Below the pieces are notes generated by a model, which saw only the letters and a list, made by a program, of their open reading frames with translations, did not search any database and was not told the origin of the DNA. The translations under genes were made by a program, and so were the position numbers. Of a stretch of DNA of 64,000 nt, positions 19,083 to 50,955 are shown one piece after another (position 1 is the stretch's first letter; each line of letters starts with the position of its first letter). The stretch covers positions 1-64,000 of the forward strand of contig CALUYS010000002.1 in the NCBI GenBank assembly GCA_944325065.1, given 5' to 3'. The stretch comes from Candidatus Gastranaerophilales bacterium. Its GTDB lineage: Bacteria; Cyanobacteriota; Vampirovibrionia; Gastranaerophilales; Gastranaerophilaceae.

Positions 19083-19352
19083 GGGATTTATATACGAGAT
19101 TATACTAAATTAATCCCAATCCATCGTACTGAATTTATTTACCATAAATGGAACATTTAACTTGCACGACTCAACTTCGTTTGTCTAAAAGAGAAATTTT
19201 TATTTTTTTTTGTTTATTAAATACTTAAACACACTATGCTTCGCTGGGTATAGAGGGTCACAAGTTTGTACCTTTACCGTGTTCACTTTATAAAGTTGAC
19301 CATGACAATTTTAAATGGTTTTGTTTAGGTGTAAACTAGTATATAAATACCC
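19083..19352. mobile_element. MITE-like element 1 with terminal inverted repeats
   Basis: A 270-bp non-coding element. The left end GGGATTTATATACGAG and the right end CTAGTATATAAATACCC are inverted copies of each other over about 25 bp with few mismatches. The same ends occur in the element at 45857. Possible 8-bp target duplication: TTCTTTTA (19075-19082) on the left and TTATTTTA (19353-19360) on the right, one mismatch. No transposase frame is inside, so it would need a transposase in trans. It fills the 335-base gap between two convergent genes. Confidence 0.7.
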
Positions 19353-45519: not shown

Positions 45520-45610
45520 TTAAAAATTACTATTATAAAAAATGATTAGATTTTCATTGCATTCTACAAACTAGATAAAATAAAAAAAGTTTGTTCAAGA
45601 AACTTATAAC

Positions 45611-45642
45611 AAAAGGTTCCTGTTAATACAGGAACCTTTTTT
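45611..45642 (+). terminator. Strong rho-independent terminator
   Basis: A perfect 12-bp stem (AAAAGGTTCCTG 45611-45622 with 45629-45640) and 6-nt loop followed by T residues, 92 bases after the 114-aa gene. Confidence 0.9.
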
Positions 45643-45650
45643 AATTTGTT

Positions 45651-46698
45651 CTATTGAAACATTCCGTTGGTGTAATTATATATATTTCCCTTTCCTAGAA
45701 ATTGATTGGATAATATTATTTTTGTTTTTAATTTTTTAATGTTATTTAATATTATTAGCATTGTAAGATGTTTTGATATATTATGAGCAATAAGCTCTTC
45801 TGTTAATATATCTTTAACAGTTGATAAATAAGCACTTTTTTATCTTTCTAATACAAGGGATTTATATACGAGTTTACACTAAATATGAAACATTCGTCAC
45901 TACGAGCTTTAGCGTAGCAACCGCGAAAACTATACTCAACACAAATAAGATAATTGGATTGCCCCGAAAATCAAAGATTTTCTCACAATGACAATAAGTT
46001 TATGTAAAATTGTATATAATCACCTAATACAAATATGCAATTTCAGTACATAACTTTAAAGATTTTGTATGTTGAAATTGCCTATTCAAGATATTTGGAC
46101 AAGACGTATGTTTCTGTGTTTTTCTATAATTTCTTTATATTTTTTTCTTTTTAACTTGTGTTTTGATATCATATTCATTAATTCATTGTATATTTTTATT
46201 TTCTTTTTACTGTAACTCCATATTAACTTTCTAAATTCATTGTTCTTGTCCTATATCTTGCAAGCTTTTTTTGATTATTAAATTTTTTTCTAGCAAGATT
46301 TTCTTTGTGTTTTTTTATAGTAATAACTACTTTGATTGACTCTTGAACAAGCACATAAAAAAAAAAGACATCGAATGATGAATAGGATGTAAAATCAATA
46401 AATTCAAAATTTTAAGTTACTTCTTTTAACTCCTGCTTGGGAACTTTTTTAGGAATTTTACCTGTTGTTTAAGCATTTAATTTCTTATTTGAGCTTTTGA
46501 AGTTTTTCGTTTATTGTGAATATTGTTTTTCTTGGGTTATATAATGTTTCCAAGCTCTTTATTTTCTTTTAAGAGTCTTTCTATTCCAAAAGGTATCATG
46601 AATTTATTTTCAACAACACAAACATTTTTTATGGTTGTTCTTGACCTATAAGTATATTTACGTCTATTTCTTCTTTAATAAATACTTGCAATGGAGAT
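45651..46698 (-). pseudogene. Decayed IS3-family transposase, interrupted by a MITE
   Basis: No intact frame exists in this 1.26-kb gap, but the minus strand translates in pieces to IS3-type OrfB. From about 45651 to 45847 one frame reads SAYLSTVKDILTEELIAHN and later LGKGNIYNYTNGMFQ, matching the rve integrase core and its HSDQG region in degenerate form. Just upstream of the inserted MITE another frame reads LKLCTEIAYLY, matching the WVTDITYL segment, so removing the MITE rejoins neighbouring parts of one transposase. Further upstream (to about 46640) frames with ERLLKENKEL and a basic IWSYSKKKIK segment suggest OrfA end and OrfB start. Several frameshifts and stops make it non-functional. 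Confidence 0.6.
45848..46032. mobile_element. MITE-like element 2 with 9-bp target-site duplication
   Basis: The element proper spans 45857-46023 (167 bp) and is flanked by perfect direct repeats CTAATACAA (45848-45856 and 46024-46032). Its left end GGGATTTATATACGAG and right end TTGTATATAATCAC are imperfect inverted repeats, matching the ends of the element at 19083. The middle resembles common bacterial intergenic repeats (CGTCACTACGAGC ... GATTGCCCCG ... CACAATGAC). It has no coding capacity. It sits inside the IS3 transposase remnant. Confidence 0.78.
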
Positions 46699-46745
46699 AA
46701 AACCCTAAAACCATTTTTTTTATTTTCTATAGGTTTTAGGGTTTC
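46699..46745 (-). terminator. Probable terminator of the Ycf23-like gene
   Basis: A 13-bp inverted repeat (46700-46712 with 46732-46744) lies 37 bases after the stop of the minus-strand gene. Read on the minus strand the right arm ends GGGTTT followed by TATC, so the U tract is short; it could instead be an end of the decayed IS. Confidence 0.45.
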
Positions 46746-46781
46746 AGTTAAATAAAGTTGTTTTTTCTATTAAAATAAAAT

Positions 46782-48162: not shown

Positions 48163-50955
48163 ATGATAAAAACTGGATTTAAACAGAAAGAATCAATAAA
48201 AGAATTTGTTGAATATTGGAAAGATAGAGGATATGAAAAAGGCGAAAGTCAGCCATTTTGGATTTCTTTATTGAAGGATGTTTTTGATGTTGACCATCCT
48301 GAGAAATATATTTCTTTCGAAGACAAAGTTTTTTTAGACAACACAAGTTTTATTGATGGATATATTGAAAAAACAAAAGTTTTAATTGAGCAAAAAAGTT
48401 TGGGTAAGGATTTGAATAAACCGATAAAACAATCTGATGGGAGTTATTTAAGCCCTTTTCAACAAGCTAAGAGATATATAACAGAATTGCCCTTATCAAA
48501 ACATCCTCGTTGGGTAGTAACTTGTAATTTTTCTGAGTTTTATGTTTATGATATGGAACGCCCAAATTGTGAACCTGAAATTATTAAGCTTGAGGATTTA
48601 CCAAAAGAGTATTACCGACTTCAATTTTTGGTTGATAAAACTAACGAACATATTGAGAAAGAAATACAAGTCTCAATAGATGCTGGCAAAATGGTTGGAC
48701 TTTTATATGATGCATTTTTGAAACAATATATTAATCCGGATAATGATGAAACACTAAAAAGCTTAAATATTTTATGTGTGCGTTTGGTATTTTGTTTATA
48801 TGCTGAGGATGCTGGAATTTTTGGGAAACATAATTGTTTTTGTGATTATTTAAGAGAATTTGATGCAAGGAAAATGCGTAATGCTTTAATTGATTTATTT
48901 AAAGTTCTTGATACGAAACTTGAACATAGGGATCCATATTTAGATGCATCTCTTGAATCATTTCCTTATGTAAATGGTGGTTTATTTGCTGATAAAGATA
49001 TTGAAATACCTAATTTTACAGATGAAATAAAAAATTTACTTATAAACAAGACCGGTTTTGAATTTGATTGGTCACAAATAAGCCCTACCATTTTTGGTGC
49101 TGTTTTTGAAAGTACATTAAATCCTGAGATTAGACGAAAAGGCGGGATGCATTATACTTCTATTGAAAATATTCATAAGGTTATTGATCCTTTGTTTATG
49201 AATGATTTAAAAAATGAATTTGCTGCCATTTGTAATATAAAACAGGAAAAAACAAAAATATCAAAGTTAAAAGAGTTTCAAAACAAAATAGCATCCTTGA
49301 CATTTTTGGATCCTGCCTGTGGAAGTGGAAATTTTTTAACAGAAACATATATTTCATTGCGTAAACTTGAAAATGAGATTTTATATGAATTACAAAAAGG
49401 GCAAATAAAATTTGGTTTAGTTGAGAATCCAATAAAGGTTTCTATTTCTCAATTTTTTGGGATTGAAGTAAATGATTTTGCTGTTACAGTTGCGAAAACA
49501 GCTTTATGGATTGCAGAATCACAAATGTTAAAAGAAACTGAGAATATTGTACAAATGGATTTAGATTTTTTGCCCTTAAAAACCTATGCAAATATTGTTG
49601 AAGGGAATGCTCTTCGTATTGATTGGAATAATGTTATTCCAAAAGATAAACTTAATTATATTATGGGCAATCCGCCTTTTGTTGGTTCAAAATATTCAAA
49701 TGAATTACAAAAAAAAGATATGGATTTTGTTTTTAACCATTCGAAAGAAATAAAATATAGAACTTTAGATTATGTTTGTAGCTGGTATAAAAAAGCAGTG
49801 GATTATATTTTAAATACTAATATTGAAGTTGCTTTTGTTTCGACTAATTCTATTTGTCAAGGGGAACAAGTTGCTATATTGTGGAAGCCATTATTTGACA
49901 AAGGTATAACAATTAATTTTGCTTACCGTACCTTTCGCTGGGATAGTGAAGCAAGTTTGAAAGCACATGTTTATTGCGTAATTATTGGATTTAGTGCTGT
50001 AAAATGTGATAAACAAAAAATAATATATGATAATGGTACACAAAAACAAGCTAAAAATATTAATGCTTATTTAATTGATGCTCCTAATGTTTTTATTGAA
50101 AGTAATAATAAACAGATAAGTGGCAAAAAGAAAATGATTGCACCAAATAAACCATGTGATTATAACAACTTAAAAATAGAATCAAGTGAATATTCTGATT
50201 TTATAAAAAAATGCCCGCAAGCAATTAAATGGATAAAAAAAATGGTCGGAGCACAGGAATTTATCAACAACAAAGATAGATATTGTTTGTGGTTAGTTGG
50301 TTGCTCTCCAAAAGAATTAAAATCTATGTCATTAGTCTTAGATAGGGTTGAAAAATGTAGGCAGGCAAGATTAGACGCGAATACAGCAGAGTCTATAAAA
50401 TTAGCAAATACGCCTAATTTATTTAGAGAACAGATTAATCCCGAGCAATATCTTTTGATACCTTGTGTATCATCTGAAAGAAGAAAATATATTCCGATTG
50501 GTTTTTTAGATAAAAATACAATTCCTGTTATGGGTGTTTTAATTGTGCCTGATGCAAAATTGTATCATTTTGGAGTTTTGACCTCAAATGTCCACATGGC
50601 TTGGATGAGAGCAGTGTGTGGAAGATTGAAAAGTGACTACCGTTATTCAAAAGACATTGTTTATAACAATTTCCCCTGGTGTGAACCAAATGATGAACAA
50701 AAAGCAAAAATTGAAAAAACAGCACAAGCCATCCTTGATGCCCGTGCTTTGTTTCCTCAATGTTCATTAGCTGATTTATATGATGATTTAACTATGCCTC
50801 CTGAACTTAGAAAAGCTCATCAGGCAAATGACAAAGCTGTTATGCAAGCATATAATTTAGATATTAAAACAACAACAGAATCATCTTGCGTTGCCCATCT
50901 TATGGGATTATATCAACAAAAAATAAACGAAATAAATAAAACAAAAATAAAATAA
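48163..50955 (+). CDS. MmeI-type (type IIL) restriction-modification enzyme
   Basis: Single-chain enzyme carrying both DNA cleavage and adenine methylation with one target-recognition domain, 930 residues like MmeI (about 920). Order: N-terminal PD-(D/E)XK nuclease with D65 and IEQKS (E76, K78); helical spacer; methyltransferase with SAM motif DPACGSGNFL (383-392) and catalytic NPPF (about 503-506); target-recognition domain with PNLFR and YLLIPCVSSERRKYIP; C-terminal helices with YRYSKDIVYNNFPWC. All key residues are intact, so it should be active. No separate methyltransferase or specificity gene is adjacent. It has no clear ribosome binding site. Probably acquired horizontally. Confidence 0.9.
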   Translation: MIKTGFKQKESIKEFVEYWKDRGYEKGESQPFWISLLKDVFDVDHPEKYISFEDKVFLDNTSFIDGYIEKTKVLIEQKSLGKDLNKPIKQSDGSYLSPFQQAKRYITELPLSKHPRWVVTCNFSEFYVYDMERPNCEPEIIKLEDLPKEYYRLQFLVDKTNEHIEKEIQVSIDAGKMVGLLYDAFLKQYINPDNDETLKSLNILCVRLVFCLYAEDAGIFGKHNCFCDYLREFDARKMRNALIDLFKVLDTKLEHRDPYLDASLESFPYVNGGLFADKDIEIPNFTDEIKNLLINKTGFEFDWSQISPTIFGAVFESTLNPEIRRKGGMHYTSIENIHKVIDPLFMNDLKNEFAAICNIKQEKTKISKLKEFQNKIASLTFLDPACGSGNFLTETYISLRKLENEILYELQKGQIKFGLVENPIKVSISQFFGIEVNDFAVTVAKTALWIAESQMLKETENIVQMDLDFLPLKTYANIVEGNALRIDWNNVIPKDKLNYIMGNPPFVGSKYSNELQKKDMDFVFNHSKEIKYRTLDYVCSWYKKAVDYILNTNIEVAFVSTNSICQGEQVAILWKPLFDKGITINFAYRTFRWDSEASLKAHVYCVIIGFSAVKCDKQKIIYDNGTQKQAKNINAYLIDAPNVFIESNNKQISGKKKMIAPNKPCDYNNLKIESSEYSDFIKKCPQAIKWIKKMVGAQEFINNKDRYCLWLVGCSPKELKSMSLVLDRVEKCRQARLDANTAESIKLANTPNLFREQINPEQYLLIPCVSSERRKYIPIGFLDKNTIPVMGVLIVPDAKLYHFGVLTSNVHMAWMRAVCGRLKSDYRYSKDIVYNNFPWCEPNDEQKAKIEKTAQAILDARALFPQCSLADLYDDLTMPPELRKAHQANDKAVMQAYNLDIKTTTESSCVAHLMGLYQQKINEINKTKIK

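Follow-up and report, generated by a model that had tools for sequence, protein, structure and literature searches.

The 168-bp element at positions 45857-46024 of the window, by which we mean the whole stretch of 64,000 nucleotides of Candidatus Gastranaerophilales DNA that was analysed, is very probably a non-autonomous IS1595-type transposon (MITE), judging from the likeness of its ends to those of transposase-bearing elements. It is a real and recently multiplied element that lies inside the remains of another one, so to speak a parasite living on another parasite, in a gut bacterium related to the cyanobacteria. It has what defines a MITE, being short and non-coding (the longest open stretch in six frames is 44 codons), bounded by imperfect terminal inverted repeats that match at 19 of 26 positions, flanked by a target duplication and present in several copies.

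The element, its copies and its host repeat

45564..45856 (-): left part of the host repeat, an IS3-type transposase remnant by its paralogues (L191, 96% identical, and further copies in decay on C6 and C14)
45849..45856 (+): left target-site duplication TAATACAA, 8 bp, an exact repeat that is single in the empty paralogue
45857..46024 (+): MITE, 168 bp, delimited by copy comparison and flanking duplications
45857..45882 (+): left terminal inverted repeat GGGATTTATATACGAGTTTACACTAA
45999..46024 (-): right terminal inverted repeat, five-copy consensus GGTGACTATATACAATTTTACATAAA
46025..46032 (+): right target-site duplication TAATACAA, exact repeat
46025..46749 (-): right part of the IS3-type transposase remnant, with paralogous stretches on C6 (two), C19, C14 (two), C1 and C29

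The window alone gives marginal evidence for the element. In a scan restricted to it, the 19/26 ends with an exact 8-bp repeat were the best of 6981 pairs, and a score of 19 was also reached in two of 20 first-order random windows. This is settled by the rest of the genome (1.86 Mb in 37 contigs), in which five full copies are found, on contigs 2, 3, 4, 10 and 16, each with its own exact 8-bp duplication (TAATACAA, TAAATTAA, TTAATTTT, TAATTAAA and TTAAATTT). The copies differ from one another at 3-7 of their 168 bases and from the consensus at 1-4. Searching for more copies had been proposed in the sequence-only reading, an earlier description made from the letters of the window, and the search returned four full copies beyond the one in the window. 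The MITE had no match in phage and plasmid records, and an Rfam scan around it found none at gathering scores.

The same reading had described a perfect 9-bp target duplication around a 167-bp element with inverted ends. The inverted ends are there, as is the 9-bp direct repeat (CTAATACAA, 45848-45856 and 46024-46032), but the true duplication is 8 bp and the element is one base longer, because all five copies have a CC terminus, the other four are 168-bp elements between 8-bp duplications, and the empty paralogue has an A instead of a C directly before TAATACAA. The ninth repeated base, a C, closes the element in one occurrence and belongs to the flank in the other.

The host had been read as an IS3 transposase remnant, and this assignment, which is made by sequence comparison, is supported by way of a paralogue: the copy on contig 6 matches PF13333 (rve_2) with an E-value of 8.2e-15, and no integrase family of Pfam was matched by the pieces of the remnant in the window itself that were scanned. 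Contigs 1, 6, 14 and 19 of this genome also contain stretches of the repeat. The paralogue L191 at the end of contig 29 is an empty site, which aligns without a gap to the joined flanks (element and one duplication removed) and is identical at 427 of 442 positions. The MITE therefore entered a pre-existing repeat, which bears out the nested order that had been claimed. An empty site had been expected in relatives; the one found is paralogous and in the same genome, and a search with the right flank against 39 genomes gave no clear one in another species, with short partial matches present.

Other elements with such ends are seen in the window and in its genome. The window has a second, decayed or older one at 19083..19351 (+), 269 bp long, whose flanking repeat matches at 7 of 8 positions with an offset of one base. 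The same genome also has two more types of element with ends of this kind, both between exact 8-bp duplications, one of 152 bp (L115:669-820, G000:C24) and one of 509 bp (L007:1018-1526, G000:C3). Near the MITE, a gene of 930 residues (48163-50955) resembles a restriction-modification methylase by eye, and the window scan found no such ends beside it.

The probable link to IS1595-type transposases

The ends and the duplication had been offered as a lead to the transposase family, and the ends point to IS1595-type relatives, with a duplication of 8 bp and not 9. The pattern GGGAYTTATATANNAGTTTACACNNA, with one mismatch allowed, matches in 21 of 191 family genomes (Gastranaerophilales), and the reversed control pattern had no match. 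In two pairs, whose ends are separated by 8.2 and 8.7 kb and flanked by exact 8-bp duplications, an IS1595-type transposase is enclosed. Relatives of this transposase are found in 37 of 333 family genomes at an E-value of 0.001, a count that includes weak matches such as fragments and parts of other long frames.

The similarity of the ends is close. The left end of the MITE differs at 2 of 26 positions from one end of the large element L171 and at 3 from one end of L081 and of L082, and the consensus of the right end differs at 3 of 26 from both ends of L178; none of 20000 shuffled MITE ends came that close, the best shuffles having 6 (left) and 5 (right) mismatches. The two MITE ends are unlike each other (19/26), and the transposon groups whose ends they resemble are not the same and come from separate other genomes. 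The earlier reading had proposed to find a full-length relative with a transposase; 12 transposase-bearing elements with similar ends are found in other genomes, none of them with both ends identical to those of the MITE. In the genome G116, a 202-bp MITE (L099) and a large element (L082) have an identical 26-bp end, the duplication of the MITE matching at 7 of 8 positions. By eye, the interior next to the MITE ends differs from that of the large elements and only the ends are common to both, so that simple internal deletion of the large elements seen does not account for the MITEs.

In all, 41 distinct elements with such ends, from 139 bp to 11.7 kb, have exact 8-bp repeats (this set being limited to exact duplications without offset). 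Their target is 88-91% A+T at each duplication position, compared to 62-87% in the 12 nucleotides to each side of it. By eye, these 41 sites are often preceded by CAA and followed by TTG, which may be a palindromic target preference. In the passages of PMC8101967 that treat the IS1595 family, its members are described as usually having 8-bp duplications, and the Merlin elements, which are related, are said to have GG ends. The likeness to this family lies in the DDE_Tnp_IS1595 domain of the large relatives, the 8-bp duplications and the GG... ends; the differences are that the MITE has no transposase and that the large relatives span 3-12 kb and carry cargo genes.

The helper is inferred and not resident, because the window's genome holds only a decayed IS1595-type fragment (contig C10, with a stop and 56 query residues matched). 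This fragment is closest to the transposases of L179, L177 and L178 (54, 46 and 46%), and the 10 kb around it (L109) contain no such ends. An intact IS1595 transposase is absent from both the window's genome and its congener G001, the latter having 55 matching ends and no IS1595 transposase match at all. For five of the 21 end-bearing genomes a transposase match is listed, namely that of the window (G000, the fragment), G116, G144, G159 and G206; some of the matching ends in G116 and G159 belong to the large element itself. The delimited elements of G001 (for example L095, L052, L026 and L036) are long, at 509-1359 bp, and the longest stop-to-stop frame of L052 has 104 codons.

We propose that an IS1595-type DDE transposase, supplied in trans, would bind the two 26-bp GG... 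ends and excise or copy the MITE. The MITE would then be joined to an 8-bp staggered cut in AT-rich DNA, here within an IS3-type copy that was already dead. The helper is probably gone from the window's genome, and the core of the MITE, an inverted pair of REP-like hairpins, would travel as a passenger.

Duplications of 8-9 bp are also made by other transposase families, and one could suppose that another DDE family of this kind, such as IS256, moves the MITE. IS256-type genes are present in the order, in 5 of 39 genomes, but PF00872 (IS256, the one rival family searched) has no match in the window's genome or in 23 other genomes of the family, and an IS256-type helper was rejected for this reason. 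IS1595-type elements of the same bacterial family, on the other hand, carry ends that are 2-3 mismatches away from those of the MITE, which makes a helper from another DDE family improbable. The hairpins in the core could also be taken to mean that the MITE spreads as a REP or REPIN by an HUH (Y1) tyrosine transposase, with the terminal repeats being incidental. Genes of the Y1_Tnp type do occur in 21 of 58 genomes, but none is found in the window's genome or its congener, and the exact 8-bp duplications and GG...CC ends suit a DDE transposase.

REP loci in genomes without such ends also speak against the HUH route: 20 of them, sampled in four genomes, have no flanking ends with a duplication. 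We consider this route very unlikely. A repeat arisen by chance, or a segment copied through recombination, would agree with the marginal score of the window but is refuted by the five copies, each of which is flanked by a different exact duplication, and by the empty site, so that we give it next to no credence. An IS1595-type transposase acting in trans is what we retain as the most probable means by which the MITE moved.

Large IS1595-type transposons and their cargo

The IS1595-type elements whose ends resemble those of the MITE are considerably larger. For twelve transposase-bearing elements both boundaries could be placed; these have exact 8-bp duplications and GG... ends that match at 23-26 of 26 positions, where the duplication-delimited boundaries were part of how the elements were found. 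Their sizes are 3089, 4882, 5244, 5670, 7953, 8151, 8698, 8999, 9499, 10951, 11626 and 11672 bp. A transposase match with no two-end delimitation is present at L110, L162, L163, L165, L167, L169, L170, L173, L174 and L179, several of which are near contig ends.

The class assignment rests on PF12762 (DDE_Tnp_IS1595, described in Pfam as ISXO2-like), which is matched by the transposases of L081 (7.8e-34) and L177 (1e-42); the other ten were assigned by tblastn similarity (40-79%). Among the matches listed for plasmid relatives of the transposase, five of eight were annotated as IS1595-type by their depositors. An N-terminal zinc finger domain is attributed to all IS1595 groups but IS1016 in PMC8101967. 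No zinc-finger family was found at an E-value of 0.001 in the L081 and L177 transposases, the two that were scanned. Compared to PDB sequences, the best E-value for the transposase was 0.08. By general definition an insertion sequence is compact and has little beyond its transposase gene, and since all twelve large elements carry further genes we have filed them as IS1595-type transposons and not as insertion sequences. The IS1595 insertion sequence is described with a single transposase gene in PMC8101967, and according to PMC7986276 several IS families include members that carry passenger genes (tIS).

The large elements share parts of a common frame. Eight of the twelve have a DUF2130 gene whose start is 135-183 bp from the left end; Pfam confirmed it in both elements scanned. 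These eight (L081, L082, L164, L166, L168, L171, L172 and L175) also have the palindrome TAGGTACCTA, at 121-136 bp from the left end and close to where DUF2130 starts, and the four that have no DUF2130 lack it in their first 300 bp; it may be an operator. Behind the transposase, nine of the twelve have a small gene of about 160 residues. This gene is found in 22 of 333 family genomes, with some of these matches weak or partial, and in 354 genomes of the order (the family split of which is not given) all 22 matches were within this family. The small gene had no Pfam match (two scanned), no plasmid match and nothing significant in PDB sequences. Four elements also carry a tyrosine recombinase gene and a fifth a fragment of one, the L168 protein being assigned to PF00589. 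In viral contigs two stretches fit a pattern and none was confirmed. A 3-kb element in another genome (L097:3799-6797, G184) is flanked by an exact duplication, and none of its frames of at least 100 residues is a transposase; it carries a flagellin-like gene of 638 residues, as judged by eye.

Restriction or other defence-type genes are found in 11 of the 12 large elements by Pfam and PADLOC:

L081: EcoRII-like enzyme, C5 methylase and an HhH-GPD-like protein just below cut-off
L082: SinI-like enzyme and C5 methylase
L168: type IIG enzyme and HKD/SNF2-type helicase; L164 alike by sequence
L166: AbiTii
L171: Eco57I-type methylase and helicase; L172 alike by sequence
L175: C5 methylase, Vsr and Mrr
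L178: Eco57I-type
L177: N6 methylase
L180: Fic and SLFN-AlbA2
L176 (3.1 kb): one cargo gene, outside the Pfam scan and counted as none recognised

The twelve are not fully independent, because the pairs L164/L168 and L171/L172 carry related cargo. As a control we compared, at a PADLOC threshold of 1e-10, 49 cargo proteins (18800 residues) with 69 flank proteins of the same loci (18471 residues). The cargo was matched by 154 models and the flanks by 13, these figures being models and not proteins; among the matches listed for the cargo, 25 of 25 were restriction-modification or DNA-methylase models, and none of the flank models was named restriction enzyme or methyltransferase. The machinery of Tn7 is usually described as consisting of several genes, and these elements differ from Tn7-like transposons in having one IS1595-type transposase gene and the small gene. 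They are alike in that many defence genes are carried as cargo, going by PMC8649781.

REP-like hairpins and the spread of short elements

The core of the MITE contains two hairpins, which are compared here with the CGTC-tagged REPs as the text of PMC3733652 describes them:

45895..45923 (+): first REP-like hairpin, tag CGTC, 5-bp stem
45955..45993 (-): second REP-like hairpin, inverse orientation, AT start, tail CCA, stem longer and interrupted; consensus tag CGTC (4/5 copies), TGTC in the window copy

In the passages on their structure (PMC3733652), CGTC-tagged REPs have the tag CGTC, many of them TGTC, with stems of 8-9 bp that begin with AT, loops of 4-5 bases and mostly a head-to-head dimer arrangement. 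These REPs are said there to be apparently without a dedicated transposase (Di Nocera et al. 2013), and in one species, Halothiobacillus neapolitanus, all CGTC-1 dimers are described within a GGG...CCC palindrome. The hairpins found here are similar in the CGTC or TGTC tag, in the AT-first stem and 5-base loop of the common type, and in the head-to-head dimers; one folded example of this type consists of the tag TGTC, a stem of 8 bp that starts AT, a loop of 5 bases and CTC. What differs is that the dimers lie inside transposon ends with an 8-bp duplication. The palindrome surrounding the dimers here is the end pair of an IS1595-type MITE with target duplication.

This arrangement is common to most of the short elements. 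Of 30 distinct elements below 360 bp with such ends, 26, the window's MITE among them, have an inverted hairpin pair, with GTCA at both inner sides in inverse orientation, and the remaining four have GTCA on one side. Shuffling the cores in 200 rounds gave the pair in a mean of 0.64 and a maximum of 4 of 30. The distance from the 26-bp end inward to GTCA is 12-14 or 24 bp in most cases; for the MITE of the window the distances are 13 and 6 bp. By shared 12-mers the 30 elements fall into 10 groups, seven of which include an element with the pair. The set was defined by an exact 8- or 9-bp duplication within a two-base offset (7-of-8 pairs were excluded) and comes from loci fetched by end patterns and not at random, five of the elements being the window genome's own copies. 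In the same test none of seven longer elements (509-2999 bp) without IS1595 transposase had the pair on both sides.

That REP pairs ride in MITEs is supported by these counts. A general spread of REPs by the IS1595-type route is unsupported, because the hairpins are far more common than the ends (143 of 182 genomes compared to 21 of 191) and also occur without them. In G033, G145, G150 and G168, the 20 REP loci mentioned above, which were all taken from genomes without such ends and not at random, and some of which run into a contig end, have no flanking inverted ends with an exact 8-bp duplication.

A joint reading of the short and the large elements can be put forward tentatively, and we hold it with somewhat less than even confidence. 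The IS1595-type transposases would be a route by which CGTC-type REP dimers spread, these dimers being the usual core of short MITEs in this bacterial family. The same transposases would carry large defence-laden transposons with a fixed frame, in which DUF2130 is on the left near TAGGTACCTA and the transposase and the new small gene are on the right, and both DUF2130 and the small gene would be part of the transposition machinery. In the open-licence papers that were covered, mostly top-ranked titles and the beginnings of abstracts, there was no description of these transposons or of the link between REPs and MITEs.

The ends of this MITE, from uncultured gut bacteria, point to the transposase family behind it. 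Following them has brought to light IS1595-type transposons that carry restriction systems, and it offers a testable answer to how CGTC-tagged REPs, apparently lacking a transposase dedicated to them, can spread.
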